Source of the DNA: a virus
Length of the DNA: 20,365 bases
Strand: one strand, 5' to 3'
Virus record (IMG/VR): IMGVR_UViG_3300029319_000651
Location: 1-20,365 of that record
Shown: positions 1 through 20,022 of the stretch, one piece after another
Position numbering within the stretch: position 1 is the first letter of the stretch
Layout of the letters: each line of letters starts with the position of its first letter
Position numbers and translations under genes: made by a program
Notes under the pieces: generated by a model
Database searches by the model: none
What the model was told of the DNA's origin: nothing
What the model saw: only the letters and a program-made list of their open reading frames with translations

Positions 1-825
1 AATGAAGGTATAAAACCAGCATTAAGTGTTGGTAACTTTCAATGGATTAATGGAGTAAAAGATTCTCAAGTAATTTTTTATCCAGATCCAAAAGGTAGAT
101 TTAATATTAGCTGGATCCCACCTTCAAACTTACAAAATAAAATTATATTAAAAAATGGAAGCAAATACCCTGGCAACGATTATATGGGCGCTTTTGGCTG
201 CGACAGCTACGATATTAGCGGTACTGTAGACGGCAAAGGTTCAAAAGGCTCGCTACACGGTTTAACAAAATTTAGTATGGAAGATTGTCCACCAAACCAA
301 TTTTTCTTAGAATATATAGCTAGACCACAAACAGCTGATATATTTTTTGAAGATGTACTTATGGCTTTGGTGTTTTATGGTATGCCATTACTTGCAGAAA
401 ACAATAAACCAAGATTATTATACTATTTACGCAGACGCGGTTACAGAGGTTATAGTATGAATCGTCCTGATAAATCTTGGAACAAGTTATCAACAGCTGA
501 AAAAGAAATAGGTGGTATACCTAATTCAAGTGAAGATATTAAACAAGCGCATGCAGCAGCAGTAGAGATGTATATACAAGGCCACGTTGGTCAAATGCAA
601 ACTGGCGATTACGGTAGCATGTACTTTAATAGAACATTAAATGATTGGAGTAAGTTTGATATAAACAAGCGTACAAAGTTTGATGCAACAATTAGTAGCG
701 GTTTAGCTATTATGGCTTGCAATAGACATTTGTATGCTCCAAATCCAAATATAGAAAAACAAAAACTTAACATTAATATATCCAGATATACTAACACTGG
801 TTATAATTCTAAAATAATAAAATAA
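1..825 (+). CDS. terL: Terminase large subunit, C-terminal nuclease part (5'-partial)
   Basis: The reading frame is open from the first base, so the gene begins upstream of the window; the ATG at 184 is internal. The visible 274 residues match the RNase H-like nuclease domain of large terminases, which cuts concatemeric DNA during packaging at the portal. Three acidic residues are in the expected order (numbered from the window edge): Asp68 in GCDSYD, Glu133 in LAENNK, and Asp228 in KFDATISSGLAIMA. The segment YIARPQTADIFFEDVL, then ENNK and a Tyr/Arg-rich stretch ending in RPDKSW, is a pattern I recall from Bacteroidota phage terminases. The N-terminal ATPase half, with Walker A and B, is not in the window. 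The portal gene follows after 4 bases, the usual packaging pair. The family is confident; the catalytic assignment rests on motif reading only. Confidence 0.9.
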   Translation, partial: NEGIKPALSVGNFQWINGVKDSQVIFYPDPKGRFNISWIPPSNLQNKIILKNGSKYPGNDYMGAFGCDSYDISGTVDGKGSKGSLHGLTKFSMEDCPPNQFFLEYIARPQTADIFFEDVLMALVFYGMPLLAENNKPRLLYYLRRRGYRGYSMNRPDKSWNKLSTAEKEIGGIPNSSEDIKQAHAAAVEMYIQGHVGQMQTGDYGSMYFNRTLNDWSKFDINKRTKFDATISSGLAIMACNRHLYAPNPNIEKQKLNINISRYTNTGYNSKIIK

Positions 826-829
826 ATAT

Positions 830-3250
830 ATGGCAGAGTCTGTTATAAAAAGTTATTTTCCAAGTCAAGTTGTAAGCGATGCTGAAAAGTTAAGCTATGA
901 CTATGGATTAAAAGTTGCTAAAGCTATTGAAACTGAATGGTTTTACAATGATTATAACCAAACAAGATATACAACAAACAAAAATAATTATCATAATTTA
1001 AGATTATACGCTAGAGGCGAGCAGTCAATAAAAAAATATAAAGATGAATTATCTATTAATGGTGATTTATCTTATTTAAATTTAGACTGGACACCAGTAC
1101 CTATTATACCTAAGTTTGTAGATATAGTTGTAAATGGTTTAGCCGAGCGTATGTACGATATAAAAGCATATTCTCAAGATCCATACGGTGTTAGTAAACG
1201 TACAGAGTACATGGAGTCTATTTTAAAAGACATTAAAACAAAAAACTTTGACGACTATGTAATGAACGAGTTTGGTGCTAATATACAAGCTAGTAAAATG
1301 CAAGAACTACCTGCTAATGAAGAAGAGCTAGCTTTGCACATGCAATTAAATTATAAACAGTCTGTAGAACTTGCTGAAGAACAAGCTATAAGAACTTTAT
1401 TAGAAGGTAACAATTATGAATTAACAAAGAGAAGGTTTTATTATGATTTAACTGTTTTAGGTATTGGCGCTGTAAAAACAGATTTTAATACATCAGAGGG
1501 TTTAACTGTAAAATATGTTGATCCTGCAGATTTAGTTTATTCATATACAGAGTCACCTTATTTTGACGACTTATATTATGTTGGTGAAGTTAAAAAAATA
1601 CCTGTAAATGAATTAGCAAAAGAGTTTCCGTTTTTAGAACAAGAAGATTTAGAAGATATAATTAAAAACAAAAATTATCATCAAACTAATTATGATCAAG
1701 GATCTACTCAATATAAAGAAATAGATAATAATAAAGTTCAAGTTTTATATTTTAATTATAAAACATATATGAACGAAGTTTATAAAGTAAAAGAAACTGG
1801 TAGTGGTGCTGAAAAAGCTATAGAAAAAGATGATACGTTTGACCCACCAGCAGAAAAAGAAGGTAACTTTGCAAGACTACAAAGAGCTATAGAAGTCATA
1901 TACGAAGGTGCTATAATATTAGGTACTAACAAACTTTTAAAGTGGGAGATGGCTAAAAATATGGTTAGACCAAAAAGCGACTATAATAAAGTAAAAATGA
2001 ATTACTCTATTGTAGCTCCACGTATGTATAAAGGTAGAATAGAAAGTTTAGTTAGACGTATAACTGGTTTTGCTGATATGATACAGCTTACACATTTAAA
2101 ACTACAACAGGTGTTAGGGCGTATGGTACCAGATGGTGTTTATCTTGATGCTGATGGTTTAGCTGAAATAGATTTAGGTAATGGAACAAACTATAATCCG
2201 CAAGAAGCATTAAATATGTTTTTCCAAACAGGTTCTGTAATTGGTAGATCAATGACACAAGACGGTGATATGAATCCTGGCAAAGTACCAATACAAGAAA
2301 TAACTAGTGGTAGTGGTGGTAATAAAATACAAGCTTTAATAGGTAACTATAATTATTACCTGCAAATGATAAGAGATACTACCGGGCTTAACGAAGCTAG
2401 AGACGGTAGTTTACCGGATAAAAACGCTTTAGTAGGTGTACAAAAACTAGCCGCAGCAAATAGTAATACAGCTACAAGGCATATATTACAGTCTGGTTTA
2501 TTTTTAACAGCAGAAGTAGCTGAACTTTTATCATTAAGAATATCAGATGTTATTGAATATTCACCAACGAAAGATGCTTTTATTCATGCTATTGGTGTGC
2601 ACAACGTTGCTACATTAGAAGAATTAAAAAGTTTATATTTATATGATTTTGGTATATTTATAGAATTAGCTCCTGATGAAGAAGAAAAAGCTTTGCTTGA
2701 AAATAATATACAAGTTGCTTTAGCTCAACAAAGTATAAATCTTGAAGATGCTATTGATATTAGAGAGATTAAAAATTTAAAATTAGCTAATCAGCTTTTA
2801 AAAATTAGAAGAATTAAAAAGCAAGAAACTGATCAAAGAATACAACAAGAGAATATACAAGCTCAAGCACAGGCTAATGCTCAAGCTCAACAAGCTGCTG
2901 CAGCTGCTGAAGTTCAAAAAAATCAAGCTTTAACAGAAACTAAAGCTGCTTTAGCTCAAATAGAAGCACAACTAGAACTTCAAAAAATGCAAGCAGAAAA
3001 CGAGCTTAAAAAAGATATAATGGCAAAGCAGTTCGAATATGACATGCAGTTAAAAAATGTAGAAAGCGCAGGCATGCAGCGAAGAGAAAAGCAGAAAGAA
3101 GATCGTAAAGATGAAAGAACAAGAATACAAGCAACTCAACAAAGTGAGTTAATTGATCAAAGAAAAGGTGAGAAAGCACCTAAAAATTTTGAGCAAGCAG
3201 GTGATGATATACTAAGCGGGCTTAATTTACAAGGTGAAACCTTGATGTAA
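830..3250 (+). CDS. Portal protein
   Basis: This 806-residue protein lies directly after the terminase and before the scaffold-like and capsid genes, the standard portal position. Its length suits the large portals of crAss-like and related phages. The portal forms the dodecameric ring at one capsid vertex through which DNA enters and leaves. A conserved-looking N-terminal block at residues 85-118 (LDWTPVPIIPKFVDIVVNGL followed by AERMYDIKAYSQDP) resembles the wing region of such portals as I remember them. Residues about 655-775 are a long, highly charged, Gln/Ala-rich helix with runs such as AQAQANAQAQQAAAAAE, predicting a coiled coil that could extend the barrel into the capsid. The start is 4 bases after the terminase stop (TAA-ATAT-ATG), without a Shine-Dalgarno sequence, which suggests coupled translation. 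No enzyme motif is seen. Confidence 0.85.
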   Translation: MAESVIKSYFPSQVVSDAEKLSYDYGLKVAKAIETEWFYNDYNQTRYTTNKNNYHNLRLYARGEQSIKKYKDELSINGDLSYLNLDWTPVPIIPKFVDIVVNGLAERMYDIKAYSQDPYGVSKRTEYMESILKDIKTKNFDDYVMNEFGANIQASKMQELPANEEELALHMQLNYKQSVELAEEQAIRTLLEGNNYELTKRRFYYDLTVLGIGAVKTDFNTSEGLTVKYVDPADLVYSYTESPYFDDLYYVGEVKKIPVNELAKEFPFLEQEDLEDIIKNKNYHQTNYDQGSTQYKEIDNNKVQVLYFNYKTYMNEVYKVKETGSGAEKAIEKDDTFDPPAEKEGNFARLQRAIEVIYEGAIILGTNKLLKWEMAKNMVRPKSDYNKVKMNYSIVAPRMYKGRIESLVRRITGFADMIQLTHLKLQQVLGRMVPDGVYLDADGLAEIDLGNGTNYNPQEALNMFFQTGSVIGRSMTQDGDMNPGKVPIQEITSGSGGNKIQALIGNYNYYLQMIRDTTGLNEARDGSLPDKNALVGVQKLAAANSNTATRHILQSGLFLTAEVAELLSLRISDVIEYSPTKDAFIHAIGVHNVATLEELKSLYLYDFGIFIELAPDEEEKALLENNIQVALAQQSINLEDAIDIREIKNLKLANQLLKIRRIKKQETDQRIQQENIQAQAQANAQAQQAAAAAEVQKNQALTETKAALAQIEAQLELQKMQAENELKKDIMAKQFEYDMQLKNVESAGMQRREKQKEDRKDERTRIQATQQSELIDQRKGEKAPKNFEQAGDDILSGLNLQGETLM

Positions 3251-3279
3251 AAAATTATTAATTATTATTATATTATATT
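3251..3279 (+). promoter_or_regulatory. A/T-only leader before the scaffold-like gene
   Basis: The 29 bases between the portal stop and the ATG at 3280 contain only A and T, with repeated TATTA units and no Shine-Dalgarno sequence. They would give an unstructured mRNA leader, the kind that supports initiation in Bacteroidota. The last bases and the start codon context (TTATATTATGGCAAAAAA) recur before the gene at 6095. No -10/-35-like or Bacteroidota TAnnTTTG element is visible, so I read this as a translation signal and not a promoter. Confidence 0.45.
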
Positions 3280-4494
3280 ATGGCAAAAAAACAAAAAGAA
3301 ACTGTAGCCGAAGAGGCTATTAAAGATAACGTTACTAAAGTTAAAGTTATCGAACAAGAAAAAAAAGAAGATGATAACATCATCAAAGTAGATTTAACAA
3401 AACCACCAAAAACAAAAGAAGATGCCGTTCCAGAGCAAAGCACAGATGAGGTTCCTGTACGCGACGAATCCGAAACTAGCGAAAAAGTACTCGAAGAAAA
3501 CGTCGAAACAACAGATGAAAAACCTACCGGAGAAGAAGTCTCCGACACAGTTCAAGATGAAGCACCCGTTATTGAGGAAATAACAGATGAAGAAGTTCAA
3601 GAGCAAGCAGAAGAATTAGTTGAAGAAACTAAAGAAGCTATAACCGAAGCTCAAGAAACAGGTCAAGCTTTACCTGAAAACATACAAAAGCTTATGGACT
3701 TTATGGACGAGACTGGTGGTAGTGTTGAAGATTATGTTCGTCTTAATCAAGATTATACCTCTTACGATGATAACATGGTTTTAAGAGAGTATTATAAACA
3801 AACTAAAAAACATCTTAATGACGAAGAGATTAGTTTTTTAATGGAAGACTCGTTTTCATATAACGAAGAAGAAGACGATGAAAGAGATATAAAAAGAAAA
3901 AAATTAGCGTTAAAAGAGCAAGTTGCCAGCGCTAGAGCCTACTTAGACGGGCAAAAGTCTAAATACTATGAAGAAATTAAGGCTGGGTCAAAGTTGACTC
4001 AAGAACAACAAAAAGCTATTGATTTCTTTAATAGATACAACAAAGAATCAGAAGAGAATCAAAAAGTTGTAGAACAGCAAGCTAAAACTTTTAAATTAAA
4101 AACTGACAATTTATTTAATAAAAACTTTAAAGGTTTTGATTATAATGTTGGTGATAAAAGATATAGGTTTAATGTTAAAAATACAAATGAAGTAAAAGAA
4201 ACTCAAAGCGACATTAATAATTTTGTCAAGAAGTTCTTGAACAAGAACAGTGAAATGGAAGATGCTGCGGGTTATCACAAATCTTTGTTTACAGCAATGA
4301 ATGCTGATGCTGTTGCTAGACACTTCTACGAACAAGGTAAAGCTGATGCTTTAAAAGAAAGTATGGCTAAATCTAAAAACGTTGATATGAATCCAAGACA
4401 AGCTTTTGGTGAAGTTGAAGCTGGAGGTATGAAAGTAAGAGTATTAGGTGATAACTCTAATGATTTTAAGTTTAAAATTAGAAATAAAAAATAA
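3280..4494 (+). CDS. Scaffold-like head protein (acidic, coiled coil)
   Basis: This 404-residue protein sits between portal and capsid genes, where scaffolding proteins are normally encoded. Residues 1-130 are very rich in Glu, Asp and Lys, with almost no hydrophobic core, and look disordered. Residues about 135-275 are strongly helical and charged, including a conserved-looking stretch at 167-190 (VLREYYKQTKKHLNDEEISF followed by LMED). The end is basic (FKFKIRNKK), a layout scaffolds use to bind capsid subunits. The likely role is to direct capsid assembly and then leave or be degraded; no protease gene is visible nearby. It could instead be an internal head protein. The leader is an A/T-only run, and leader plus first codons closely match those of the gene at 6095. 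Function is inferred from position and composition. Confidence 0.6.
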   Translation: MAKKQKETVAEEAIKDNVTKVKVIEQEKKEDDNIIKVDLTKPPKTKEDAVPEQSTDEVPVRDESETSEKVLEENVETTDEKPTGEEVSDTVQDEAPVIEEITDEEVQEQAEELVEETKEAITEAQETGQALPENIQKLMDFMDETGGSVEDYVRLNQDYTSYDDNMVLREYYKQTKKHLNDEEISFLMEDSFSYNEEEDDERDIKRKKLALKEQVASARAYLDGQKSKYYEEIKAGSKLTQEQQKAIDFFNRYNKESEENQKVVEQQAKTFKLKTDNLFNKNFKGFDYNVGDKRYRFNVKNTNEVKETQSDINNFVKKFLNKNSEMEDAAGYHKSLFTAMNADAVARHFYEQGKADALKESMAKSKNVDMNPRQAFGEVEAGGMKVRVLGDNSNDFKFKIRNKK

Positions 4495-4517
4495 TAACAA
4501 TTTAAAATTACAAAATT

Positions 4518-6026
4518 ATGGCAATTACTGCAGGAAGTTCGTTGAATAGTGCGCCTACGCATAGGCAACAAACACTAGCAACAAACTATTTAGATTTCAA
4601 CCAAGATATGGGTTGGGCTCAACAATACCTGCCAGACTTGATGGAAAAAGAAGCTGAGGTTTTCGGACCTAGAACAATTTCTGGTTTCCTTGCTCAAGTT
4701 GGTGCAGAAGAGGCTATGACATCTGATCAAGTTGTCTGGTCTGAACAATCAAGATTACACCTATCTTATTTAGGTAATATATCTGCTCACTCAGGTGGTA
4801 CATCATCATCTGGTGAAATTACATTAGAAGCTGATATTGACGGAAACACTGACAACATCGCTACTCATGGTATTAGAGTTAACGATTTAATTATCGTTGC
4901 TAACAAGCTTGGTACAGCTAAATGTATCGTTAGAAAAGTAGAAGCATCTGGTGGAGTTATTGATGTAGCTCCTTATGGATTAGCTAACTTATCTACTTTA
5001 GAATTAACTACTTCAAAAGCTACTACTATATTAGTTTATGGTTCTGAATTTGATAAAGGTGAGCAGTACAGAAGTGCTACTGCTGAAGGTACACAAGCTT
5101 CTACAAGAGGTGCTAATGAGCCTTCTTTCAAAACTTTTGACAACAAGCCAATCATTATGAAAGATTACTACGAAGTATCAGGATCTGATTCTTCTAGAAT
5201 TGGTTGGGTTGAAGTATCTGCTGAAAATGGTCAATCAGGTTACCTATGGTACTTAAAAGCTGAGGCTGACACAAGAGCTCGTTTCACTGACTACATTGAA
5301 ATGGCTATGTTAGAATCAGAAGTTGGTGTACCAGGTACTGATGATACTGATGATTTCTTAGGAGCTGCTAGAGCAACTGCTGCAACTGGACAAGCTACAG
5401 GTACTCAAGGTTTATTCCAAGCTATCGAAGTTAGAGGTAACGTTACTAATGGTGTAACAGGTGTTAACCCAGCTACTGATTTAGCTGAGTTCGACGCAAT
5501 ACTTGCTGAGTTTGATAAGCAAGGTGCTATAGAAGAGTACATGATGTTTGTTAACAGATCAACTAGCTTAGCTATTGATGATATGTTAGCTTCAATGAAC
5601 TCTTACGGAGCTGGTGGTACTTCTTACGGAGTATTTAACAACTCTGAAGATATGGCATTAAATTTAGGTTTCACTGGTTTCAGAAGAGGTTCTTATGACT
5701 TCTACAAGTCTGACTTTAGATACTTAAATGACAAAGCTACAAGAGGTGGTGTTAACGATGCTGCTGGTGCTGGATCTGCGATTAGAGGGGTTTTAATTCC
5801 TGCTGGTACTTCTTCAGTTTATGATCAAACTGTTGGTGCGAGTATGAAGCGTCCTTTCTTACACGTAAGATATAGAGCTTCACAAACTGATGACCGAAGA
5901 TTAAAAACTTGGGTTACTGGTTCTGTTGGTGCTGCTACATCTGCATTAGACGTTATGCAACTACATTTCTTAACTGAAAGATGTTTAATCACTCAAGGTG
6001 CTAACAACTTTATGTTAATGAAGTAA
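4518..6026 (+). CDS. Major capsid protein (HK97-fold type)
   Basis: This 502-residue protein follows the scaffold-like gene and precedes the neck genes, as a major capsid protein should. The N-terminal region at residues 37-83 contains YLPDLMEKEAEVFGPRTISG and EEAMTSDQVVWSEQSRLHLS, a pattern I associate with capsid proteins of crAss-like and Bacteroidota phages; the length of about 500 residues also fits. Residues about 86-178 are Gly/Ser/Thr/Val-rich and begin with a flexible HSGGTSSSGE linker. They look like an inserted beta-barrel domain in an otherwise alpha/beta protein. The capsid fold is inferred, since no structure prediction was run. Codon choice differs from the neighbours: by hand count TTC outnumbers TTT 13 to 7, and ATA is only 4 of 23 Ile codons, as expected for the most abundant protein. 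A strong hairpin terminator begins 11 bases after the stop. Confidence 0.9.
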   Translation: MAITAGSSLNSAPTHRQQTLATNYLDFNQDMGWAQQYLPDLMEKEAEVFGPRTISGFLAQVGAEEAMTSDQVVWSEQSRLHLSYLGNISAHSGGTSSSGEITLEADIDGNTDNIATHGIRVNDLIIVANKLGTAKCIVRKVEASGGVIDVAPYGLANLSTLELTTSKATTILVYGSEFDKGEQYRSATAEGTQASTRGANEPSFKTFDNKPIIMKDYYEVSGSDSSRIGWVEVSAENGQSGYLWYLKAEADTRARFTDYIEMAMLESEVGVPGTDDTDDFLGAARATAATGQATGTQGLFQAIEVRGNVTNGVTGVNPATDLAEFDAILAEFDKQGAIEEYMMFVNRSTSLAIDDMLASMNSYGAGGTSYGVFNNSEDMALNLGFTGFRRGSYDFYKSDFRYLNDKATRGGVNDAAGAGSAIRGVLIPAGTSSVYDQTVGASMKRPFLHVRYRASQTDDRRLKTWVTGSVGAATSALDVMQLHFLTERCLITQGANNFMLMK

Positions 6027-6036
6027 ACTATTTATT

Positions 6037-6075
6037 AAGGATCGAGGCTTCGGCCTCGACCCTTTATTTTATTAA
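6037..6075 (+). terminator. Rho-independent terminator after the capsid gene
   Basis: A perfect 7-bp stem, TCGAGGC (6042-6048) with GCCTCGA (6053-6059), closes a TTCG loop (6049-6052), giving the very stable C(UUCG)G tetraloop. After one A/C mismatch, the stem continues as AAGG (6037-6040) with CCTT (6061-6064). A T-rich tail, TTATTTTATT, follows. It is by far the most GC-rich short stretch in this part of the window. It starts 11 bases after the capsid stop, so it probably ends or partly attenuates late transcripts and protects the 3' end of the capsid mRNA. Confidence 0.85.
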
Positions 6076-6094
6076 TTTTATTATATATTATATT
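6069..6094 (+). promoter_or_regulatory. A/T-only leader before gene 6095
   Basis: Between the terminator and the ATG at 6095 every base is A or T, ending in TATATTATATT before ATGGCAAAAAA. This is nearly the same as the leader of the scaffold-like gene at 3280. No Shine-Dalgarno sequence is present. If the upstream terminator is efficient, a promoter must lie in this short stretch, but I see no recognisable promoter motif. Confidence 0.4.
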
Positions 6095-6904
6095 ATGGCA
6101 AAAAATCAAAAAACAGAAGTGGCTGTTGAAAAACCACAGGTTGTAGAACAACCGAAACCAAAAAAAGTTGAATCTGTAAAACCAAAATGGGAAATAAAAA
6201 ACAGGTTATATTATTTGAAAGGTAGAAATAAACCTTTATCGTATATGTTAAAAAGTTCTGACATATATTATTTTGATGAAGAAAAAGGTTATGAAAGAGA
6301 GTTAAAGTATACAAAAAATCAAAGAACACCATTTGTTGATGAAATGACAGGTGATCAAAGATTAGAGCATATTATATTTAGAAATGGTGCTCTGTTTGTA
6401 GAAAAAGAAAAAACTACTTTACAAAAATTATTAGATTTACACCCATTTAAAGATAAAATATTTTATGAGCATAATGCGGTTGAAGAAGCTGCTAATGAAA
6501 TAGAACTGCTAGAAATGGAGGCTGATGCAATATTAATGGCTAGACAAATAGATGTTGATTTAGCAGAAGCTATTATGCGAGTAGAAATTGGTTCTAAGGT
6601 ATCAGAGATGAGTTCTAAAGAGCTTAAGCGTGATTTACTAGTATTTGCTAGAAACAACCCTGCTTTGTTCTTAGAATTAGCCGCTGATGACAATGTTCAG
6701 CTTAGAAACTTTGGTATTAAAGCTGTAGAACTTGGAATAATTGATTTATCTGACGATCAAAGAAACTTCCTATGGAGTTCTAACAAAAGAAAAATCATGA
6801 CAGTTCCTTTTGACGAGCATCCATACACTGCTTTAGCGCATTGGTTTAAAACTGATGAAGGTATGGAAATATATGCAAATATAGAAAAAAGATTAAATAG
6901 TTAA
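6095..6904 (+). CDS. Conserved phage structural protein of unknown function
   Basis: I cannot name this 269-residue protein. Residues 1-31 are a Lys/Pro/Val/Glu-rich, probably disordered tail with PKP repeats. Residues about 33-118 look beta-rich, with RNKPLSYMLKSSDIYYFDEE and an IIFRNGALFVEKEK strand pair ending in LLDLHP. Residues about 127-215 are helical and acidic (AVEEAANEIELLEMEADA, then LKRDLLVFARNNPALFLELA). There is no signal peptide, membrane segment or catalytic motif. The pattern is familiar from uncultured marine phages, but I recall no function. Its place between capsid and connector genes suggests a capsid decoration, vertex or head-completion protein. It is isolated by hairpins on both sides, unlike every other gene here, so its expression may be set separately. 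Its first residues (MAKNQK, VA, E) echo those of the scaffold-like protein (MAKKQK, VA, E). Confidence 0.85.
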   Translation: MAKNQKTEVAVEKPQVVEQPKPKKVESVKPKWEIKNRLYYLKGRNKPLSYMLKSSDIYYFDEEKGYERELKYTKNQRTPFVDEMTGDQRLEHIIFRNGALFVEKEKTTLQKLLDLHPFKDKIFYEHNAVEEAANEIELLEMEADAILMARQIDVDLAEAIMRVEIGSKVSEMSSKELKRDLLVFARNNPALFLELAADDNVQLRNFGIKAVELGIIDLSDDQRNFLWSSNKRKIMTVPFDEHPYTALAHWFKTDEGMEIYANIEKRLNS

Positions 6905-6911
6905 TCAAACT

Positions 6912-6948
6912 GTAGTGGTAGTCGCCCTACGGGGCGATTACAAACTAC
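6912..6948 (+). terminator. Strong UACG hairpin, possible terminator or processing element
   Basis: TCGCCC (6922-6927) pairs perfectly with GGGCGA (6932-6937) around a TACG loop, a C(UACG)G member of the stable UNCG tetraloop class. The stem extends through a G-U and three more pairs. After a small internal loop, GTAGT (6912-6916) pairs with ACTAC (6944-6948). The downstream sequence is A-rich (AATAAAAAAATATT), not T-rich, so it lacks the usual U tract. It may terminate weakly, mark an mRNA end or cleavage site, or tune expression between gene 6095 and the connector genes. The hairpin is certain; the function is not. Confidence 0.6.
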
Positions 6949-6962
6949 AATAAAAAAATATT

Positions 6963-7643
6963 ATGGTAAACGTAAATACAGTGTATCAAACAGTTTTAGC
7001 TCTAGCTAACAAAGAGCAAAGAGGTTATATAACACCTCAAGAGTTTAATCTGTTTGCAAATCAAGCTCAAATGAGTATTTTTGAGCAATACTTTTACGAT
7101 CTAAATCAATTTACTAGAGTACCAGGTAATGACACTAGTTACTCTGATATGGTAAACTTATTAGAAGAAAAAATAGCTGCTTTTGAAGTTTCAAACGTAA
7201 GTTACTCATCTAGCTCTTCACTTCCAGGAGACTTATACAAAATACAAACTGTTGTTTTTAATAACAAGCCAGTAGAATATGTTACACAAAAAGAGTTTTT
7301 AGAAATTAAAGATGTTCCGCTTTGTAAACCAACTGATAAAAAACCTGTGTATATAAAAAATGAAAATGGTATATCTATTTATGGTGATGCAGTAATAAAC
7401 TCTGTAAGCTTAAATTATATTAGAAAACCAGTTCCTGCTAATTGGACTTATTTAGTAGTTAACGAAAAAGCTATATACAACGACACGGCTCTTGACCACA
7501 ATCACTTTGAAATACACGCTTCAGAACAAACAGAACTTGTAAATAAAATATTAAGTTATGCTGGTATAACAATGAAAGATAATTCTTTATACCAAATTGG
7601 TGTAGCAGAAGATAATAAAAATATTCAACAACAAAAAGCATAA
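6963..7643 (+). CDS. Probable head-tail connector (ring) protein
   Basis: This 226-residue protein begins the neck and tail genes. The N-terminal 45 residues are helical, with VYQTVLALANKEQRGYITPQ followed by EFN, then QAQMSIFEQYFYDL. I associate this opening with a conserved neck protein of crAss-like and marine Bacteroidota phages. A Ser-rich loop (residues 80-87) leads to a beta region with LPGDLYKIQTV, then YIRKPVPANWTY (152-163). The C-terminal helix carries HFEIHASEQTELVNKILSYA (181-200). The likely role is a ring stacked under the portal that joins head to tail. It sits 4 bases before the next connector gene, with a TAA-ATAA-ATG junction, so the two are probably co-translated. No homology search was run, and the exact ring position is unknown. 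Confidence 0.7.
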   Translation: MVNVNTVYQTVLALANKEQRGYITPQEFNLFANQAQMSIFEQYFYDLNQFTRVPGNDTSYSDMVNLLEEKIAAFEVSNVSYSSSSSLPGDLYKIQTVVFNNKPVEYVTQKEFLEIKDVPLCKPTDKKPVYIKNENGISIYGDAVINSVSLNYIRKPVPANWTYLVVNEKAIYNDTALDHNHFEIHASEQTELVNKILSYAGITMKDNSLYQIGVAEDNKNIQQQKA

Positions 7644-7647
7644 ATAA

Positions 7648-9228
7648 ATGGCATTACTAAATCAAACTCAAAGAGAATATTATCAAGGCGAAGATTATGG
7701 TAGCTATCAATTTAGCTCTTTACGAGATATTATAAATCAATTTATGGTTGCTTATGTTGGTGAGGGTAAAATTATAAGCAAAGCAAGTAAAACAGACGTT
7801 AGTTTTCATGCTCAAAGAGCAATGCAAGAATTATCGTTTGATACGTTTAAATCTATAAAATCTCAAGAAATAGAATTACCACCTTCTTTAACAATGATAT
7901 TACCTCATGATTATGTTAACTATACTTGTTTAGCTTTTGTAGATAATGCTGGTATTAAACATAGATTATATCCAGTTAACAAAACTTCTAATCCATTTTC
8001 AATAGCACAGGAACCTGATGGTACTTATGAGTTTTCAGATGACGTAGAGTTGTTGTTAGGAAATAGTTTTGCAAGCGCTCAAGGTAGAATACATCCAAGA
8101 TGGAAAAAAACACATTTAAGCAACGTTCAAAGAAATGGAAACAGTTCAGCACCGTCTGGTTATTTAGGTTTTGGTGGTGGTTTTAATATAGAATCAGATG
8201 CTACTTTAGAAGCGTTAAAATTTACTCACGTTTCACAACCTATAAATCCTGTTAATAATCTAGATCATGATGGTAGAGTTTTGTCTTGCTGGCAAAAACT
8301 TGACGTGTCTAATATGAGTACATTAAGAATATCTGGTACTGTAGATGTTTTTAACAATACGTCTACTCAAGCTACTGCCGATGCTGTTAGTCATAGTCAA
8401 AACGTACCTGATGGTAGAGTTATAATAGGTATTCAAACAACACCTGGTGTTAATAATACTAAAACAAAAGGTACACCACAGCAAATAAATAATAATCCAA
8501 ATTTTATTAGTAAAAACACTATTGATCCAGATCTTGGTTTTATGGAATATACTTCAGACGGAACGCAACAATTAGATGTAGACGTTTCTAATCATAGTGT
8601 AGTTTATTTTATAATTAATAGTTATGTAGAGGTTAGTACATCTGAAACTCTTGCTGATGGTGTTATAGGAACAACTTTACCAACTCAACACACTTTTGTT
8701 AATACTATTTCAGAGGTTTCTGCTGTTAACGGTTTATCTACAGTAGATTTATTACCTAGAGATTTACAAACAAATGATTCTATAACTTGGGAAAGATATA
8801 AATCACACAAGCCAAATGATGATATGAATAGGTATGACGATGGTACTTATGATTTAGTTTCTGGCGAAAGATATGGTCTTGATCCTCAGTACGCTCAAAT
8901 AAACGGATCTTTTTATATTGATAATTTAAAAGGTTTAATAAACTTTAGTTCTAATGTAGGTGGTAAAACAGTTATATTAGATTATATAAGTGACGGTTTA
9001 GGTACAGAAGAAGAAATGCAAGTACATAAATTTGCACAAGAAGCGTTATACATGCATATAATGTATGCTATTTTATCTACAAGAGCTAATATACCAGAAT
9101 ATATAGTTAGAAGATATAAAAAAGAAAAGTTTGCTGCTACTAGAAAAGCAAAGCTAAGACTATCAAATATTAAATTAGAAGAAATAACACAAGTACTTAG
9201 AGGAAAATCTAAGTGGATAAAACACTAA
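7648..9228 (+). CDS. Tail tubular / connector ring protein with inserted beta-sandwich domain
   Basis: This 526-residue protein has two conserved-looking halves. Residues 15-120 contain SLRDIINQFMVAYVGEGKII, DVSFHAQRAMQELSFDT and LPPSLTMILPHDYVNYTCLA. Residues 369-526 contain YGLDPQYAQINGSFYID, VILDYISDGLG, and a helical basic end with IPEYIVRRYKKEKFAATRKA then VLRGKSKWIKH. I link this pattern to tail-tubular/gp4-like connector proteins of short-tailed Bacteroidota phages. Between the halves, residues about 175-368 are Gly/Asn/Thr/Ser-rich strands (VDVFNNTST, GRVIIGIQTTPGV, SVVYFIINSYVEVS) that look like an added jelly-roll domain. It would sit on the outside of the ring and could contact a partner or the host surface. 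The giant tail gene follows after 3 bases. The role is inferred from motifs and position. Confidence 0.75.
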   Translation: MALLNQTQREYYQGEDYGSYQFSSLRDIINQFMVAYVGEGKIISKASKTDVSFHAQRAMQELSFDTFKSIKSQEIELPPSLTMILPHDYVNYTCLAFVDNAGIKHRLYPVNKTSNPFSIAQEPDGTYEFSDDVELLLGNSFASAQGRIHPRWKKTHLSNVQRNGNSSAPSGYLGFGGGFNIESDATLEALKFTHVSQPINPVNNLDHDGRVLSCWQKLDVSNMSTLRISGTVDVFNNTSTQATADAVSHSQNVPDGRVIIGIQTTPGVNNTKTKGTPQQINNNPNFISKNTIDPDLGFMEYTSDGTQQLDVDVSNHSVVYFIINSYVEVSTSETLADGVIGTTLPTQHTFVNTISEVSAVNGLSTVDLLPRDLQTNDSITWERYKSHKPNDDMNRYDDGTYDLVSGERYGLDPQYAQINGSFYIDNLKGLINFSSNVGGKTVILDYISDGLGTEEEMQVHKFAQEALYMHIMYAILSTRANIPEYIVRRYKKEKFAATRKAKLRLSNIKLEEITQVLRGKSKWIKH

Positions 9229-9231
9229 TAT

Positions 9232-12200
9232 ATGCCGGAGATTAAAAACACTTTTACTCAAGGTAAGATGAATAAAGACCTTGATGAAAGACTTATACCT
9301 AATGGTCAGTATAGAGAAGCTCTTAATGTTAAGGTTTCTGTATCAGATGAATCTGATGTTGGTACAGTTCAGAATATATTAGGTAATGAGCGTTTAGATA
9401 GTATAATTCCAGCAGGTTTTAAATGTATAGGTAGTATATCTAATGAAAAAACAAATAAACTTTATTGGTTTGTTACAAAACCTAATTTAATAGATGCTAT
9501 AGTTCAATATGATTTAGAAAATAGTAATGTTGAGTTAGTTTTAGTAGACACAAAACAAGATACTTTAAAGTTTACAGAAAAGATAATAACTGGTATAAAT
9601 ATTATAGATAACTTATTATTTTTTACAGACGGTTATAATGAGCCTAAAAAAATAAACATAGACTCTTGTATAGCTGGAACAACAACTACAGATCTTAATT
9701 TAGCAACTCACACTGAGTTAATTGTTGATGGTGATAATAAAGGTGATATAAACGAAAGTCACATTACAGTTATACGTAAAAATCCTAAATCTCAACTTGA
9801 CGTAATAATAAACAAACCTACCGGGCAAACGTCAACTAAATTATTCGAAAAAATATTCCCAAGATTTTCTTACAGATATAAATACCAAGACGGTGAATAC
9901 TCTGCTTTTGGTCCTTTTACAGATGTTGTTTTTAATGCTCTGTATAACGAAGACTATAGTCAAGACGATGCTTATTCTTCTGTAGAGTCTTATAATACCG
10001 CTATGGTAAATAATATAAAGTCTGTAGAATTAAAAAATTTCGTAACAAGTCATACACCTAAAGACGTTGTTCAAATAGAAATACTTTATAAACAAGAAGG
10101 TAGCAATGTTGTTTTTTCTATAAAAAAAATAAACTATGATACTGATCCATCATCTGATTGGACTAACAACTCTTGTCTTATAGAATCAGAGAGTATATAT
10201 TCTGCAATACCTGAAAATCAAATATTAAGAGTTTTTGATGCTGTTCCTACTAAAGCATTAGCACAAGAAATAACAGGTAATAGATTAATTTATGGTAATT
10301 ATACACAAGGACACAGCTTGTTAAATCCTTTTGGTAATACTACTACAGCTGACTTTTTCAAAGCAGATTATGGTGTTAGAAATATAAAAAAATCTTTTAA
10401 CGATGGTGGTATACAGTCTGTAAAATCACAAAGAAAATATCAAGTTGGTTTTGTTTTAGGTGATAAGTATGGAAGAGAAACACCTGTGTTTACTTCTGAC
10501 GATGGTTTTGTAGAGATACCTTGGTATAATTATGAAAAATCTGATATTGGCTTATCTGCTAGTCAAACGTTACAAATAACAGCAAGATCTGGTTTAGGTA
10601 TAACTTCACCACAAGCAGCACCTCCTCATTGGGCAGAATATTATAAGTATTATATAAAAGAAACTTCTAGTGAGTACTATAATCTAATAATGGACAAGGC
10701 TTACATACCTTCAAGATTAAATGTTTTTGATAATGAAGAAGATCATGTTTGGATTACTTTTCCATCGTCTGATAGAAATAAAGTTTCAGAAGAAGATTAT
10801 TTAATACTAAAAAAATTAGTTGGTGGTAACGAAGAGCAAGTAAGTTTAGAAAATAAATTTAAAATATTAGCTATAGATAATGAAGCGCCTGATCAAATAA
10901 AATTTGATTATTTATCTTTAGGTTTAGCAACTCAAAACACAGCAGGTGTTACTAGTTTTTTAACTAACTCTACTAGTGGTTTAATGAGAGACGCTACGTA
11001 TAGAATAGATCAAGAAACAGATATGGTTTATGTCAGAAGAGACGCTTGGATTAATGATTGCGCTGGTGGTTCTTTAACAGATGATGGTGATAATGAAAAC
11101 ATGTACGTTAACAATATGTATATGTCTTTTGAAAACCGTGTTGACAATGTAGAAACTTCAGAAAAATATAAAGTAGTTTCTATACTTTTTGTTAACGATA
11201 ATTATCAAGTTAAACTTAATAGAAAAATAACACTAAAAGACGCTCAACTAGCTGATGTAAACGGTGTAGCAAATGATACGACTAACGGTTTAAAAGCTGA
11301 TTTAGTTTTAAAGTTTGAAAGAAAAGAACAAAAAGATTTAGATGAGTTTTCAGGTAAATTTTTTGTAAAAATAGTAGCTAGTAGAGCTGCTGTAAACAAT
11401 ATTGAATATAACGCACAACCAGATTTAACTTCTCAATTTATAGTTAGTATTAAAAAACCTATAAGGTGGTATGTTGAAAGTGCTGATGGTGGAAGTAATC
11501 CAACTACTGGTTTGATAAACGGTAGTTATCCAACACTTAGCACAGCTAATAAATTAGACGTTATAAACGGTGGTGCTACTTTAACAAATACAGAAGTTGC
11601 TTGGGCTTCAGTAATGACACAAAACTCAGGCTACGCTGGTTCTAATTATGACGGTGATTCAAGAACATTTTTTATAGATAACGCTTATTTTGTAGCTGGC
11701 CAGATAGATGACAATAACTATGCTAGACAGTCTGGGCAAACTTATAGAGGTTCAGGTGTACAGTATTATCCAGAGCCTGTTTGGGACGGAAGTGATCCTG
11801 CTAGAGGTTGGACAACTAATGCAGGATCATTTTATTATAACACATCTACTTCAACAGGATACGTTTTTGATACAAAACCTTTATATTATAATCTTCAAGT
11901 TGGAAGTACGGGTGAAATAGTTGTTAATAAAGATATTAATGGTCTAGAAGGTTATGTGCAAACTACAGGGCCAAGTCATACTGCTAGTGATCATGAAGGA
12001 TATAGAGTTTGGTTAAAAGGTAAAATACAAGATCGTTTTGATTTTGATTATACAGTATATAGTCAACAAGACGGTAAACACTATTTACACTTATCATTTT
12101 TAGGTCCTGGTGTTGATTTACATAGCGGCTTTGCACCTCTTGGTATAACAACAACCTCGCCTTTAGTAGGGCCTGGAAGTATTGCTGATAATTTACAAGG

Positions 12201-15200
12201 TATATGGGGTGGTGGTTATTTTTCTGAAAACGGAAAAACATTATTTATGGAAGGTAACTATGATGCTAATGGAGATGCTTTGTTTGATCCACCAGCACCT
12301 GGTGTTGGTCAAGGTTATGATAATTTTTATAAAGATCAACACGAAAATCAATGGAACCCAGCTTATCCTGAAAGTGAAGACACAGATGGTGCTATAAGAG
12401 ATTTTGTAAATAATTTAAAAAAGAATAGTAAGTTTAAATTTTCAAACGATACTAACGATACTGTAATAACAATAGTAAGTGATGTTCAAACAAAAAAATT
12501 ATACAACCATACCCCTTGGAGAGCTTATAAAGCTTGGGATGGTGTATCTACTAATAACAACGGTACAAACGTAGTTTCTGCTAATATAGTACTTGGTGGT
12601 AATAGTGTTGAAGAAGCTGCTGTTGCTTGGGTTCAAGATACTAGTGATCCCGTAAAGCTTACTACGTTAAAAAATAGAATAGAAAACTTTGGTAAAAGAA
12701 ATAATAGAAGAATATGTTATATATTTGAAATAGATCAAGATATAACTAGTTTGTTAGGTGATACTAATCTTCTTGATGCTAATGGAGACGGAAGCAGTCC
12801 TTTAGTAGATATAGAATTTTTATCAAAAGATCCAAATATATTAACTGGTAAACTTAGAGATGTAGCAGCTATATGGGAAACAGAACCAAAAATTGATGAA
12901 GGTTTAGATATATACTACGAAGCTAGCTCAGCATATCCTTTTGTAGTAAATGAAGATACTAACGAGCTTTTAGCACCTGTTGGTTCTAGAGTTGAAATAT
13001 TAAATTTAGAAGAAGCTAGAGTTGGTGAAGTAATTGTAGATGAAGATATATTTGTTCAAGAGTGGTTAACTGGCACTAAAGTTTCTTTAACTAGTGGCTT
13101 TAACGTAAGAGATGCTAGTGGATCTACTATTGATTACGATGGTAAACAAATTAGGTTTTATAAAGATGATGGAAGTTTTGTAACTTTAAGAATTAAACCT
13201 ACTCCAAATTTTCAAAGTAATACAGTTGCGATTTTTGATGTTGATCCTACTATAGATGCTAGCTTAGAACAAGGTTTAAGCTGGAATAATTGTTTTTCAT
13301 TTGGTAATGGTATAGAGTCTAATAGAATAAGAGATGATTTTAACGCGCCACAAATTACTAACGGTGTTAAAGCTTCTATAACGTTAGAACAAGATTATAA
13401 AGAAGAACATAGAAAAAGTGGTTTAATATTTTCTGGTATTTACAACTCAACATCAAGCGTAAATAATCTTAATCAATTTATACAGGCTGAAAAAATAACT
13501 AAAGATTTAAACCCTACATACGGTAGTATACAGAAATTATTTCAAAGAAGAATTAGTTTAGTTGCTTTCTGTGAAGATAGAGTTGTTAGTATAACTTCTA
13601 ATAAAGACTCTCTTTTTAACGCAGACGGTAATCCTCAGCTTATATCTTCAACAAACGTTTTAGGTGATGCAACACCTTTTGTTGGTGATTATGGTATAAG
13701 TAAAAACCCTGAATCATTTGCTAAAGAAAGTTATAGAGCTTATTTTACAGACAAACAAAGAGGTGCTGTTCTAAGATTATCAATGGATGGTTTGACGCCT
13801 ATATCTGAAGCTGGTATGGCTGACTTCTTTAGAGATAATTTAAAACTTACAGATCAATTAATAGGTAGTTATGATAATTATAATAAGTATTATAACTTAA
13901 CAATAAGTGATAGATTACCTACTCCTAATTTAATTTCAAACGGTACTATTACTGATGGTACTCAATCGGTGCTAGCCACAAACGCTAACCGTATATTAAA
14001 CGGTAGTGTTAACGGTACTACGCTTCAATTTCCAACTATAGATATGTCTGTAGATAATGTAACTGATAATTCTACTTTAGACAGTCAAGCTATTATAGCT
14101 AATTTTGCTGAAATACCACAATACAGTATAGTGCCAGAAACTTTTACAGTTATACCACCTACACAAAGTACTTTTTTAACTTTTAGTACCACTAGTTTTA
14201 ATTTAATTTCTGCTAGCTTTACAGATCCAACTCAAAATCCTTTCTATGGAACTGGAACTGGTAATCATGTACATAGAACATATCACATATATAGAAACTA
14301 TACTAGTAATTACGTAAGTAACGGTGTTCAACAAGGAAACCTTGGTAATTCTGTTAGTACTTTTCCAACGCCAGGTTATGGAGGTTTCGGCCCTTATAAC
14401 TATAATTCTAAAAGTGCTAATTGGTATACAGGGCTTAGTCCACAGTTTCCTACCCAAAACGTAGGAGCAAGTGAGGATATTTTTTGGAATCATACTTCTG
14501 ATTTATACAATAGTCAAACACCGCCAGGTAATGAAGCACCGTTTGGCGTAACTTCTTCTAATGATAATCCTTGGTTTAATACAGACGACGGAGATAATCA
14601 TGGTCTTGGCGCTTGTTTTGACAGTACAGACGTTGGTGGTCAAGCGATAATACTACCTGGTGTTCACATACCAGACGGAGGAACACCAAACACTTCAACA
14701 CTTACTCAAGCTGTTAAAGATAAATATCCTGCAGCTACGGATTTAACAATATTTAATGGTGAAGAAATTAAAATTACATTTTATTTTAGAAATGGTTATA
14801 ACGAAGCTTCTGGAAGTACAGACAATGATAGATCTATTTATCTAGAACTTATTGATGGTAGCTCAGGTACGTTTAATACTGACGGTGTTTACACGGGTTA
14901 TACAGCTTTAAGTGATAGTAATGTTTGGGACACAACAACTGGTAGTGGATTTACTGACACTAATTTCTCAACAACACACGGTAGTCCTGGTTCTAGTACT
15001 TATGAAGTTGGTTATGCAGATGGTTCAGCAAGTTATAATTTTCCTGTAATAAGCAATAACAACAATGTGTTTCATGAAATATTTTTTAAATTTACTGACG
15101 GTACAGAAGACGAAAGTATAGTTATTGATAATTTACAAGTGCTTCTTAGACCAAATAGTACTGATAATAATCATACTGATTTGTATGGTGCTATTTCTAG

Positions 15201-17493: not shown

Positions 17494-17495
17494 AT

Positions 17496-18803
17496 ATGGA
17501 AAAAATAATTAATTCAGTTCAAATAAATCAAAAAGATTTATCAACTTTATCAGAAGTTAGAAACTTAAAAGTTAGCGGTGATGTAGGATCTGTTTTTAAT
17601 TTAAATGTTATTAAAGTAAACGGTACAAACAAAGAAAGCTATTATGATTTTAATTCAAAAACTTTTACAGATGAATTTACTTCAAAAAATAATTTAAACG
17701 TTAGTTTAAACACGCTAAGTACTATAATACCTATAAAATTTGCTGCTGATACTAACGGTGAAACTTATAAAATTTTAGTTTTAGCTTCAGAAGTTGATAA
17801 TACTAGTTTTTCAAATGGCTCGCGTGTAAATGTAAAAGAAATAACCCAAGTAGGAACTACAACAGTGTCTATTGAAGTTGATAATGGTAAAAATAAAGTA
17901 GCTAGTAATGCTAATAAATATACCGCTGATCCACCTGCTTCTGCAGTAACATCTACAGGATCTACAACAAGCACTAGTTCTGTAAACGCGCCAGTTACTT
18001 TTGTTTTAACAAACGCAAATAACGATACACATGGTCTTGGCTTACGTTTACCTACAGATATTCCAAGTGGTAGTGTTACGCCTGCTGGTTATTTAACGGC
18101 TGCACAAACAGTTTTTTCAATACCTGACACGTATTTTTATTCTGCTATAGTGCGAAATGCTTCAGGTTCTACGAGTAGTTCAACTACAGTAACACTTACT
18201 AGTGTTGAAAATTTAGCTATTGGTATGCAAGTTGGTTATTATGGTAGCAGTGTTCTTGCTTCTTATCCAACAATTACAGCAATAAACGGTAACGTAGTAA
18301 CTCTTTCATCTGCTTTGTCAATTAGTGATGGTGATGGTGTACAGTTTAGAGCTTATGGTCCACAGTTAATTAGAACTTGTTTTGGATATACAGTAGAATT
18401 TAAAAACTTTATAGCTACTGGTGATAATTTATTTACAACTGTTAGAACAACTACAGAATTACCAGCTTCTTCTGGTTCGGTAACTATACCAGTTAACGGT
18501 ACTAGAGGTATTAGCGTTGGTGCTAGATTTTTTGGTTTAAATGTAAACGAAAATAGCAATAACAACGTAATACAGATTGTTAGTTCTTCAGAAGACGCAG
18601 GAAGTATAACTATAGAAGATTTTGCAGGTAACGTAGATGATATTGTAGCGTTAAACGTTACGGCTGGTTCAGAGTTACTTATAAGTGGTAGTAATAGAGT
18701 TGTAACAGTAACAGGTACTGTTGTTATAAAAAGTTACCCTGAATCAGATTTTAAAGTAAAATTAGATTTAAACAAGTTTATCACTCACGGAAGCGCATCT
18801 TAA
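17496..18803 (+). CDS. Tail-associated beta-rich protein of unknown function
   Basis: I do not recognise this 435-residue protein. It is almost all Val/Thr/Ser/Asn-rich beta structure, with few charged helices and no membrane segment. Residues 1-140 look like a beta domain. A Thr/Ser linker (about 143-165, with STGSTTSTSSV) follows, then further beta domains. Two stretches share a layout: VTLTSVENLAIGMQV ending in VVTLSSALSISDGDGVQF (about 229-288), and VTIPVNGTRGISVGARFFG ending in VTAGSELLIS (about 326-397). This strand-IGMxV-strand pattern occurs in phage tail and fibre proteins as I recall them. It starts 2 bases after the giant gene's stop, so expression is tightly coupled. A minor tail, fibre-anchor or tail-tip protein is the best guess. 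Confidence 0.7.
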   Translation: MEKIINSVQINQKDLSTLSEVRNLKVSGDVGSVFNLNVIKVNGTNKESYYDFNSKTFTDEFTSKNNLNVSLNTLSTIIPIKFAADTNGETYKILVLASEVDNTSFSNGSRVNVKEITQVGTTTVSIEVDNGKNKVASNANKYTADPPASAVTSTGSTTSTSSVNAPVTFVLTNANNDTHGLGLRLPTDIPSGSVTPAGYLTAAQTVFSIPDTYFYSAIVRNASGSTSSSTTVTLTSVENLAIGMQVGYYGSSVLASYPTITAINGNVVTLSSALSISDGDGVQFRAYGPQLIRTCFGYTVEFKNFIATGDNLFTTVRTTTELPASSGSVTIPVNGTRGISVGARFFGLNVNENSNNNVIQIVSSSEDAGSITIEDFAGNVDDIVALNVTAGSELLISGSNRVVTVTGTVVIKSYPESDFKVKLDLNKFITHGSAS

Positions 18804-18813
18804 AAAATAAATT

Positions 18814-19140
18814 ATGACAATAGAGTTTGAAAAAGAAATAGAAAATATATCGTTGCAAATTGGCGATGTAGCTTATGTAGTTACACCAACTACTAATGGT
18901 TACACTAATACACCTTCAAAAATAGGTGAAATTACAGCTATAAACAAATTTTCAATTGAAGTAACTAACACTTCAAGTACGCCAGTAGCTACTGATGACT
19001 TTATTATGTTTTCTAAAAACAATGTTGTTAACAATAGTAGTTTATTAGGTTATTATGCTGAAGTAAAGTTGTCAAATGATTCTACTGAAAAAGCAGAATT
19101 ATTTGCTCTAGGATCTGAAGTAGTGCAAAGTAGTAAATAA
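18814..19140 (+). CDS. Small conserved phage structural protein of unknown function
   Basis: This 108-residue, beta-rich protein has a characteristic C-terminal half: DFIMFSKNNVVNNSSLLGYY and AEVKLSNDSTEKAELFALGS, ending in EVVQSSK. I have seen this SSLLGYYAE and KAELFA pattern in structural regions of marine phages, without an assigned function. The N-terminal half (SLQIGDVAYVV, then KIGEITAINKFSIEV) reads like a small barrel with a Gly-Asp turn. There is no signal peptide or membrane segment. It lies 10 bases after the beta-rich tail gene and 27 before the probable ejection protein. A small tail or virion component is likely. The conserved-looking sequence and position make it a real gene despite its size. 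Confidence 0.75.
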   Translation: MTIEFEKEIENISLQIGDVAYVVTPTTNGYTNTPSKIGEITAINKFSIEVTNTSSTPVATDDFIMFSKNNVVNNSSLLGYYAEVKLSNDSTEKAELFALGSEVVQSSK

Positions 19141-19167
19141 TATATAAAAAATGTAACTATAAAATAT

Positions 19168-20022
19168 ATGAAAAACGAGAAAAAAAGTCCTGCAAAATTT
19201 TTTGGTATAGGTAAGCTTGTATCTGGTATAGCCGCTAAAGTATCTGCTGCTGGCGGAGGTTTAACTGGTATAAAAGCTTTGGCTATGGCTAATCCTTTAG
19301 CAACTGCCGCTGTAATAGCTGGTGGTGCTTATCTATATAGTAAACATAAAAAGAAAAAAGCAAAAGAAAAAAGACAGCAAGGCTTATTGTCAGATGCTCA
19401 GGCAGATTTTAACGAAAGACTAAAGCAATATGAAAACTTAGATTTTAAACCTATAGATATTGATGCTTTAAAACAAGAAAATTTACTAGAAGATCTTGAA
19501 ATTGATGCTTCAGCTGTAGAAGCTTCGCAAAGAGCTTTTGCACAATCACAAGCAAACATATTACAAAGCTTAAGAGGTGTAGGTGGTAGCACTGGGGCTG
19601 CTAGTTTAGCTACAGCTTTAAGTGGTCAAGCAGCAGATCAAGCTGAAAAAATGAGGTTAAGTATTGCTGAGCAGATAAATGCTAATAGAAAATTAGCGTT
19701 ACAAGAACAGTCTAGATTAAATAATATACAAAAAGAATTACAATTGGCTAATATGGAAGGTGCTAGACAATTTGAAATAGATCAATTAACTACTTTAATG
19801 GGTGTTGATGCTCAAAAAATAGCTGGTATTAGAGGTGATATTGCAGCGCAACAAGAAAGAAGAGGTCAAATATTTGGAGCAGTTGGAAGTATAATTGGAA
19901 GCGGAATAGGTAGCGGTGAAAAAGATCCATTTGGACTTGGTAATCTACCTAGCCTGCTAAAATTACCTAAAGACGACGGAACTTTAAGCGGTGGAGAAGA
20001 ACTTTCACCAGGTATGAGTTAA
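19168..20022 (+). CDS. Probable internal virion / DNA-ejection protein
   Basis: This 284-residue protein resembles small internal virion proteins of short-tailed phages in composition. A hydrophobic, Ala/Gly-rich stretch at 31-58 (LAMANPLATAAVIAGGAYLY) could enter a membrane and is followed by a dense Lys/Arg cluster (59-69). Residues about 115-230 form a long Gln/Ala helix with QANILQSLRGVGGSTGAASL (128-147), a pattern I recall from marine phage internal proteins. A glycine-zipper-like FGAVGSIIGSGIGSG (236-250) precedes a disordered Gly/Pro end. Such proteins are packed in the head and injected to help DNA cross the host envelope. Its place after the tail genes and before a similar gene fits. 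The ATG at 19168 is used; an out-of-frame ATGTAA lies just upstream at 19151. Function is inferred. Confidence 0.65.
   Translation: MKNEKKSPAKFFGIGKLVSGIAAKVSAAGGGLTGIKALAMANPLATAAVIAGGAYLYSKHKKKKAKEKRQQGLLSDAQADFNERLKQYENLDFKPIDIDALKQENLLEDLEIDASAVEASQRAFAQSQANILQSLRGVGGSTGAASLATALSGQAADQAEKMRLSIAEQINANRKLALQEQSRLNNIQKELQLANMEGARQFEIDQLTTLMGVDAQKIAGIRGDIAAQQERRGQIFGAVGSIIGSGIGSGEKDPFGLGNLPSLLKLPKDDGTLSGGEELSPGMS

Follow-up and report, generated by a model that had tools for sequence, protein, structure and literature searches.

Conserved hairpins on either side of the gene that follows the capsid gene may divide the late virion genes of a Bacteroidetes-type phage lineage into units of different dose

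The stretch of DNA analysed here, which we call the window, comprises 20,365 bases out of a 20,676-base virus record. It carries late genes of a tailed phage in the order terminase end, portal, scaffold-position gene, capsid, X, N1, N2 and further genes. The scaffold-position gene (3280-4494) is assigned its role from place alone. The capsid gene (4518..6026, plus strand) encodes a virion structural protein, phrog_13704, whose match to SU10_MCP is weak and below the cut-off. Gene X (6095..6904, plus strand) encodes 269 aa and belongs to phrog_34748, a PHROG without an assigned function, and N1 (6963..7643, plus strand), a virion structural protein of phrog_14543, is the first gene past the second of the two hairpins described below. 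A megablast of the whole window against a phage collection gave no match; the closest annotated relatives, at the protein level and below 60% identity, are Maribacter phage Panino, MW202828, the Flavobacterium elemoviruses and Cellulophaga phages. The lineage is one of mostly uncultured Bacteroidetes-type viruses.

Gene X is real and conserved, with 46 relatives aligned at 68-81% identity, and matches no Pfam family at E up to 1. Its structure model (mean pLDDT 83.4, pTM 0.61) found no match in the PDB with Foldseek at E <= 0.001, and the best VIA-align result, a RecA chain at Z 7.2 over 57 residues, is graded middling by that tool, with much of the model barely probed. Ten predicted viral structures match the model at E <= 0.001, their E-values running from 2e-13 to 3e-4; they include proteins from both crAss-like phages and Tenacibaculum phage Gundel_1. 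One of these matches is a 294-residue protein of phage phi14:2, and a 294-codon gene follows the major head protein of phi14:2; we take the two to be the same by length, the accession being unmatched. As a member of this larger group, gene X probably serves in the head or as a connector.

Only two gaps within the window are structured, and they lie directly before and after gene X, as the first-pass annotation had claimed. The remaining nine intergenic gaps span 2-29 nt; they either have a folding energy of 0 kcal/mol or are too short for any fold. Hairpin 1 (6037..6064, plus strand) has a C(UUCG)G loop followed by a T-rich tail (6065..6079, plus strand), and hairpin 2 (6911..6949, plus strand), on the 3' side of X, has a C(UACG)G loop and no U tract. 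Loops and tails are as they had been described, with the end of hairpin 2 at 6949 and not 6948. An Rfam 15 search for known structured RNA in the window and seven related loci gave 0 matches above the gathering score. A palindrome, CAAGGTGAAACCTTG, lies at 3230-3244 at the very end of the portal gene, where it adjoins the AT-rich leader of the scaffold-position gene; it has no T tail.

Two scans of viral contigs, from which the best 80 of 600 and the best 80 of 595 confirmed stretches were taken, yielded 157 loci, some of which share one contig; with the window, these make 158 sequences. Because of this choice of the best stretches, the set leans to close relatives. The gap counts cover loci whose contig extends past the gap in question, and these counts, like the pairing, leader and X tree counts, are restricted to loci with a capsid-X gap shorter than 260 nt. 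Among the matches listed, window included, all 88 distinct capsid-X gaps (143 loci) fold below -10 kcal/mol, and so do all 88 distinct X-N1 gaps among the matches listed (116 loci, first 75 nt). The same threshold was reached by 0/49 portal-scaffold and 0/71 scaffold-capsid gaps listed, and the N1-N2 gaps listed are under 15 nt or overlapping in 107 of 108 loci. Stem sequences themselves are not conserved between relatives. Loops of the form C(UNCG)G are frequent in both hairpins (hairpin 1, 63/86; hairpin 2, 66/88 of the matches listed), so an earlier description of the two as matched holds for their loops; it does not extend to tail, architecture or strand signature, which differ.

The layout recurs beyond this set. 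Five of seven annotated phage regions were analysed (MW202828, Panino, elemoF, phi38:1 and phi18:3), and every one of them shows hairpins at the capsid-X and the X-N1 junction alike. A second set comprised 15 contigs selected by their sigma-factor gene (L192 among them is the same contig as L088) and was counted by eye; here a hairpin directly follows the capsid gene in 12 of 15 and gene X in 11 of 12 readable cases, L194 being the one that lacks hairpin 2. Three of the 15 (L199, L204 and L205) have an inserted ORF after the capsid gene and no strong hairpin directly there. Extra ORFs between the capsid gene and the next shared gene were seen in L198, L199, L204 and L205, which are distant relatives. 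Judged by these comparisons, hairpins 1 and 2 are not chance. In the literature on terminators and transcription in such phages, as represented by titles, term counts and the starts of abstracts, no report of hairpins at these junctions surfaced, and the words "terminator", "promoter" and "elemo" are absent from the text of PMC7077304.

Hairpin 1 combines a GC-rich stem, a T-rich tract directly behind it and compensatory upkeep of the stem, as is expected of an intrinsic terminator. Its folding energy is -17.4 kcal/mol (z -4.1 against dinucleotide shuffles, of which 1 in 200 was equally stable), and the sequence directly 3' of it is TATTTTATTAATTTT. It ranked first in a terminator scan of bases 1-20000, in which 16 other hits, on either strand, all lie within genes; because shuffles predict 6.6 chance hits against the 17 found, a lone hit in that list means little. 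All 88 distinct gaps among the matches listed have at least five T among the 10 nt behind the stem, a count that is helped by the AT-rich surroundings. A four-base loop is present in 71 of the 88 distinct gaps listed, and in these 71 the arms are paired in 533 of 568 cells as against 445 (sd 4.5) when shuffled, the arms having been located by folding every sequence separately, a procedure biased towards pairing. On the capsid tree (86 of the 88 rows listed) the loop changes 22 times and there are many two-sided pair changes. The changes number 11 at pair 5 (11 left, 11 right) and 20 at pair 7 (18 left, 16 right); recombination could make such counts on trees, here and below, too high. The strand signature outside the T tail is weak, because 93 G-U are set against 39 A.C among the matches listed (an A.C mismatch stands at pair 8 in 32 of the 71 four-base-loop gaps listed) and because 39 of the 88 distinct gaps listed are more stable on the minus strand. 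Hairpin 1 is most likely an intrinsic terminator that would close the scaffold-capsid unit.

The tail of hairpin 1 overlaps an AT block, TTATTAATTTTATTATATATTATATT (6069..6094, plus strand), which lies flush with the ATG of X. Another AT block, TTATTATATTATATT (3265..3279, plus strand), lies flush with the ATG of the scaffold-position gene, and 3255-3297 is 91% identical to the leader and start of X. We consider both to be candidate late promoters, the latter of the scaffold-capsid unit. With flush defined as a 15-base core against the start codon, 12 or more of the 15 matching, the core stands before the scaffold-position gene in 64 of 77 distinct leaders and before X in 37 of 45, among the matches listed, and is absent from the capsid (0/97), N1 (0/83) and N2 (0/86) leaders listed. 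In ten contigs of 42-64 kb the core, with up to 1 mismatch, occurs at most twice per contig; its genome-wide rarity is not established by this, because a reversed-pattern control hits equally often (11 hits versus 11). The block was also compared with the T4 gp55-type late promoter: it reads TTATTAATTTTATTATATATTATATT and lacks the core TATAAATA of the consensus given in PMC1524935.

The -7 box of Bacteroidetes hosts, TAHHTTTG as defined in PMC6847099, gives these positions a context. In the five annotated phages it is present in 4/5 portal-scaffold, 2/5 capsid-X and 3/5 X-N1 gaps, with a chance expectation of 2-9% in each gap that has one; it is found in 0/9 of their scaffold-capsid and N1-N2 gaps, which are too short for a strong control. 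Several of these boxes stand at places where the window clade has the AT block. The clade itself lacks the element almost throughout (0/49 portal-scaffold, 3/88 capsid-X and 0/88 X-N1 gaps among the matches listed). Because the AT block is flush at the scaffold-position gene and X only, and because relatives have a host box there, we infer that it is a late promoter replacing the host-type one. An unlikely alternative is that the block is a translation-initiation context and that X is read only by way of read-through of the terminator. Its position flush against the start codon would suit this role, in Flavobacterium johnsoniae the bases upstream of the start codon modulate initiation (PMC6847099), and the tie with the reversed control leaves the motif's rarity unproven. 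However, the capsid gene, which is surely strongly translated, has no such block in front of it, nor do N1 and N2 in the leaders listed, and annotated relatives often carry the host promoter box at the position of the block.

Hairpin 2 is built of a lower stem of 6 bp, a 1x2 internal loop and an upper stem of 10 bp, and folds at -26 kcal/mol (z -9.2; none of 200 shuffles equally stable). Its pairing is strictly specific to one strand: the matches listed hold 147 G-U on the plus strand and 0 A.C, an A.C being a would-be G-U on the minus strand, and the plus-strand fold is the stronger in 87 of 88 distinct gaps listed. In a MAFFT alignment of the 45 distinct X-N1 gaps of 75 nt or less among the matches listed, 56 cells show a two-sided change with pairing kept, against 18.5 when shuffled, the covariation score is 0.345 against 0.234, and sliding one arm by 1-3 columns takes the pairing from 95.5% down to 30-54%. 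Two of five covariation measures on these 45 gaps fail to beat the shuffles clearly: pairs with a two-sided change number 5 against 3.9, a value reached by 37 of 500 shuffles, and further pair types number 16 against 17.0. The lower stem shows one-sided changes and no two-sided change in the same 45 gaps, and the consensus fold retains only nine pairs, all of the upper stem. On the X tree (90 of the 91 rows listed) we count 29 changes at pair 8, 24 involving the left base and 26 the right. Whether relatives keep the stems through compensatory changes had been set beforehand as a check on the original observation, and for both hairpins they do. On this pattern of substitutions, hairpin 2 is selected as a plus-strand RNA.

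The junction between X and N1 is also a place where genes come and go. A small ORF of ~50 aa (KSKGLGDT..KITKATGIK...CGC..R...FPY, phrog_32048) lies between hairpin 2 and N1 in some relatives, for example at L043:5469-5633. It is present in 34 of 91 distinct X-N1 gaps among the matches listed and absent from the window, and on the X tree of the matches listed it changes state at least 20 times. Five small ORFs occupy the junction in Maribacter phage Panino (L161:8336-9439) and six reverse-strand ORFs in Cellulophaga phage phi18:3 (L165:6012-7794), and because of these clusters the junction looks like an insertion hot spot. Such recurrent insertion, together with a hairpin 1 stem that carries no clear strand signature, could be taken to mean that the palindromes work at the DNA level, for instance by maintaining module boundaries as sites of binding or recombination. 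We consider this very improbable, given the strand-specific G-U pairs at hairpin 2, the frequency of UNCG loops in both hairpins and the variation of stem sequences between relatives. For hairpin 2 in particular, a role at the DNA level was set aside on the imbalance between G-U and A.C among the matches listed.

What hairpin 2 lacks in the window is the T tract of an intrinsic terminator: it is followed by ATAAAAAAAT, and its absence from the terminator-scan list is explained by the missing T tail. The tail-less state is the common one, found in 75 of 91 distinct X-N1 gaps among the matches listed, and in all 75 of these the next ORF is 12-25 nt away. T-tailed versions make up the other 16 of the 91 gaps listed, and 15 of the 16 lie 64-77 nt before the next ORF. 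The association of a T tail with a long leader is not strict, as L139, L199 and L205 have a T tail with a short leader. On the X tree of the matches listed, at least two changes of the T state are seen, against one of the long leader. The 15 long leaders listed after a T-tailed hairpin 2 share a well conserved block of ~50 nt (L037, L055, L129 and 12 more loci; the L037 version reads TTTAGGGGCTAACCTTCCGCTTTATTATGTAACTATATAATAGTAAAATA), which is possibly a promoter or another element.

These two states bear on how far the X unit extends. The first-pass annotation had suggested that gene X may form its own transcription unit. One part of this stands: X probably starts a new unit, because hairpin 1 is terminator-like and is followed by a promoter-like block. 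That the unit would also end with X, both hairpins being terminators and hairpin 2 working without a U tract, is a reading we find rather unlikely, although the T-tailed hairpins at this site in the 16 gaps listed and in the five annotated phages, and the very stable stem of hairpin 2, speak for it. X is probably not a one-gene unit because hairpin 2 has no U tract in the window, as in most of the gaps listed, and because the next ORF begins too soon for a promoter of N1 to fit in between; the leaders of N1 among the matches listed contain neither the AT block nor TAHHTTTG. From its sequence context, hairpin 2 in the window is probably no canonical terminator. With neither T tract nor promoter room there, the tail genes would be transcribed through it, and they are probably reached through a hairpin that serves in processing, in stability or in leaky termination. 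We put RNA processing or stability at roughly even odds, favoured because the pairing is so strictly strand-specific; leaky termination we hold to be possible, if doubtful.

We prefer the following reading, to which we assign a probability of about 0.55: hairpins 1 and 2 would be RNA elements that split the late virion genes into units of different dose. In the first step, supported by sequence and comparison, hairpin 1 and its T tail would end most scaffold-capsid transcripts. In the second, the AT block overlapping that tail would act as a late promoter and restart transcription at X, as a second copy of the promoter before the scaffold-position gene. In the third, the U-less hairpin 2, 12-25 nt before the next ORF, would let the polymerase through and act on the RNA, either by processing the X message or protecting its 3' end or by terminating leakily, with the result that expression of X exceeds that of the tail genes under the same promoter. 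In other relatives the hairpin 2 site holds a T-tailed terminator, in most cases accompanied by either a separate long leader or a host-type promoter box. Overall, the expected expression levels would be capsid > X >= tail genes. An abundance step from the capsid gene down to the tail genes, which had been raised at the outset, is in this respect half right, as the hairpin pair more likely gives a stepped abundance profile.

A candidate for the factor that reads the AT block comes from related contigs. A Sigma70_r2 search matched 2 of 13 records, G001 and G002, which are 61- and 63-kb contigs of the window clade; one of the two proteins passes the Pfam cut-offs for regions 2 and 4 and the other is below both. 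A scan with this sigma protein gave 23 contigs, that of G002 included, and hence 22 further ones. The sigma-70-family protein, of ~249 aa, is found at L167:412-1155 (minus strand), L168:800-1546 (plus strand) and L169-L191. Its C-terminal tail has the consensus SQV.DYL, with QV invariant in 17 aligned sequences, a tail that may resemble the clamp-binding tails of T4 late factors. The capsid gene is present in 15 of 15 sigma contigs examined, out of the 23 loci. The pattern WTTATATTATATYATG, with up to 1 mismatch, occurs in 14/14 sigma-carrying records and 1/5 isolates, where the hit is far from these junctions; its reversed control occurs in 8/14 and 0/5.

The protein was not found in 13 of 15 contigs, most of which are fragments, or in 5 of 5 isolates, and when these 18 records were searched with a profile, along with two others and with no positive control, the result was 0/20. 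G003, a 64-kb contig, has the AT block, and the sigma protein was not found in it. The window record is itself a 20-kb fragment. That the phage sigma factor of related contigs reads the AT block is a speculative proposal. Tentatively, and with some doubt, we hypothesize a late-transcription system with two sites: the lineage's own sigma-70-type factor (~249 aa) would read the AT-block promoter before the scaffold-position gene and before X, the capsid terminator would close the first unit, and the U-less hairpin past X would set the dose of the tail genes by RNA processing, with relatives that lack the factor using host-type promoters at the same places.

If the preferred reading holds, the hairpin pair may allow different output levels for shell and tail genes, and the junctions described here map a possible control of shell-to-tail stoichiometry in a large, mostly uncultured group of Bacteroidetes-type phages. 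The layout is common to cultured relatives such as the elemoviruses and phi38:1, and the phage sigma factor is a candidate for a late-gene switch. In evolution, a single site has switched between a T-tailed terminator and an RNA hairpin that has no tail.

Several known systems resemble parts of this arrangement. The RNase III processing sites of T7 are hairpins between late genes with a small internal loop. Hairpin 2 likewise has a small internal loop. Its helix, 16 bp in the window and of median 15 bp in the 76 short-leader gaps among the matches listed, is shorter than classical RNase III substrates. T-phi of T7 and T3 is a stem-loop terminator between gene 10 and gene 11, described as inefficient in T7 (PMC3276506), and hairpin 1 too sits directly after a capsid gene and before the next virion gene. 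T-phi differs in being read by a single-subunit phage RNA polymerase; a search for that polymerase family (PF00940) matched 0 of 13 records here and likewise 0 control genomes. A further difference is that hairpin 1 is followed at once by a promoter-like block and, past the next gene, by a second hairpin.

In phiX174, terminators between capsid genes give stepwise falling transcript amounts, and an overlapping promoter-terminator element lies elsewhere in that genome (PMC9135205). That phage is unrelated, and its four terminators of varying strength contrast with one terminator and a U-less hairpin here. Closer to the window, the elemovirus elemoF, phi38:1 (Callevirus), phi18:3 (Baltivirus), Panino and MW202828 share the virion genes in the same order along with the hairpins at both junctions, and differ in that hairpin 2 is T-tailed in all five. 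In the crAss-like phage phi14:2, too, the major head protein is followed by a hairpin (z -4.05), one that lacks a T tract. A terminator after the capsid gene is already of a well-known kind, which limits the surprise of hairpin 1; what differs from that kind is the covarying, U-less hairpin 2 together with the paired AT block.
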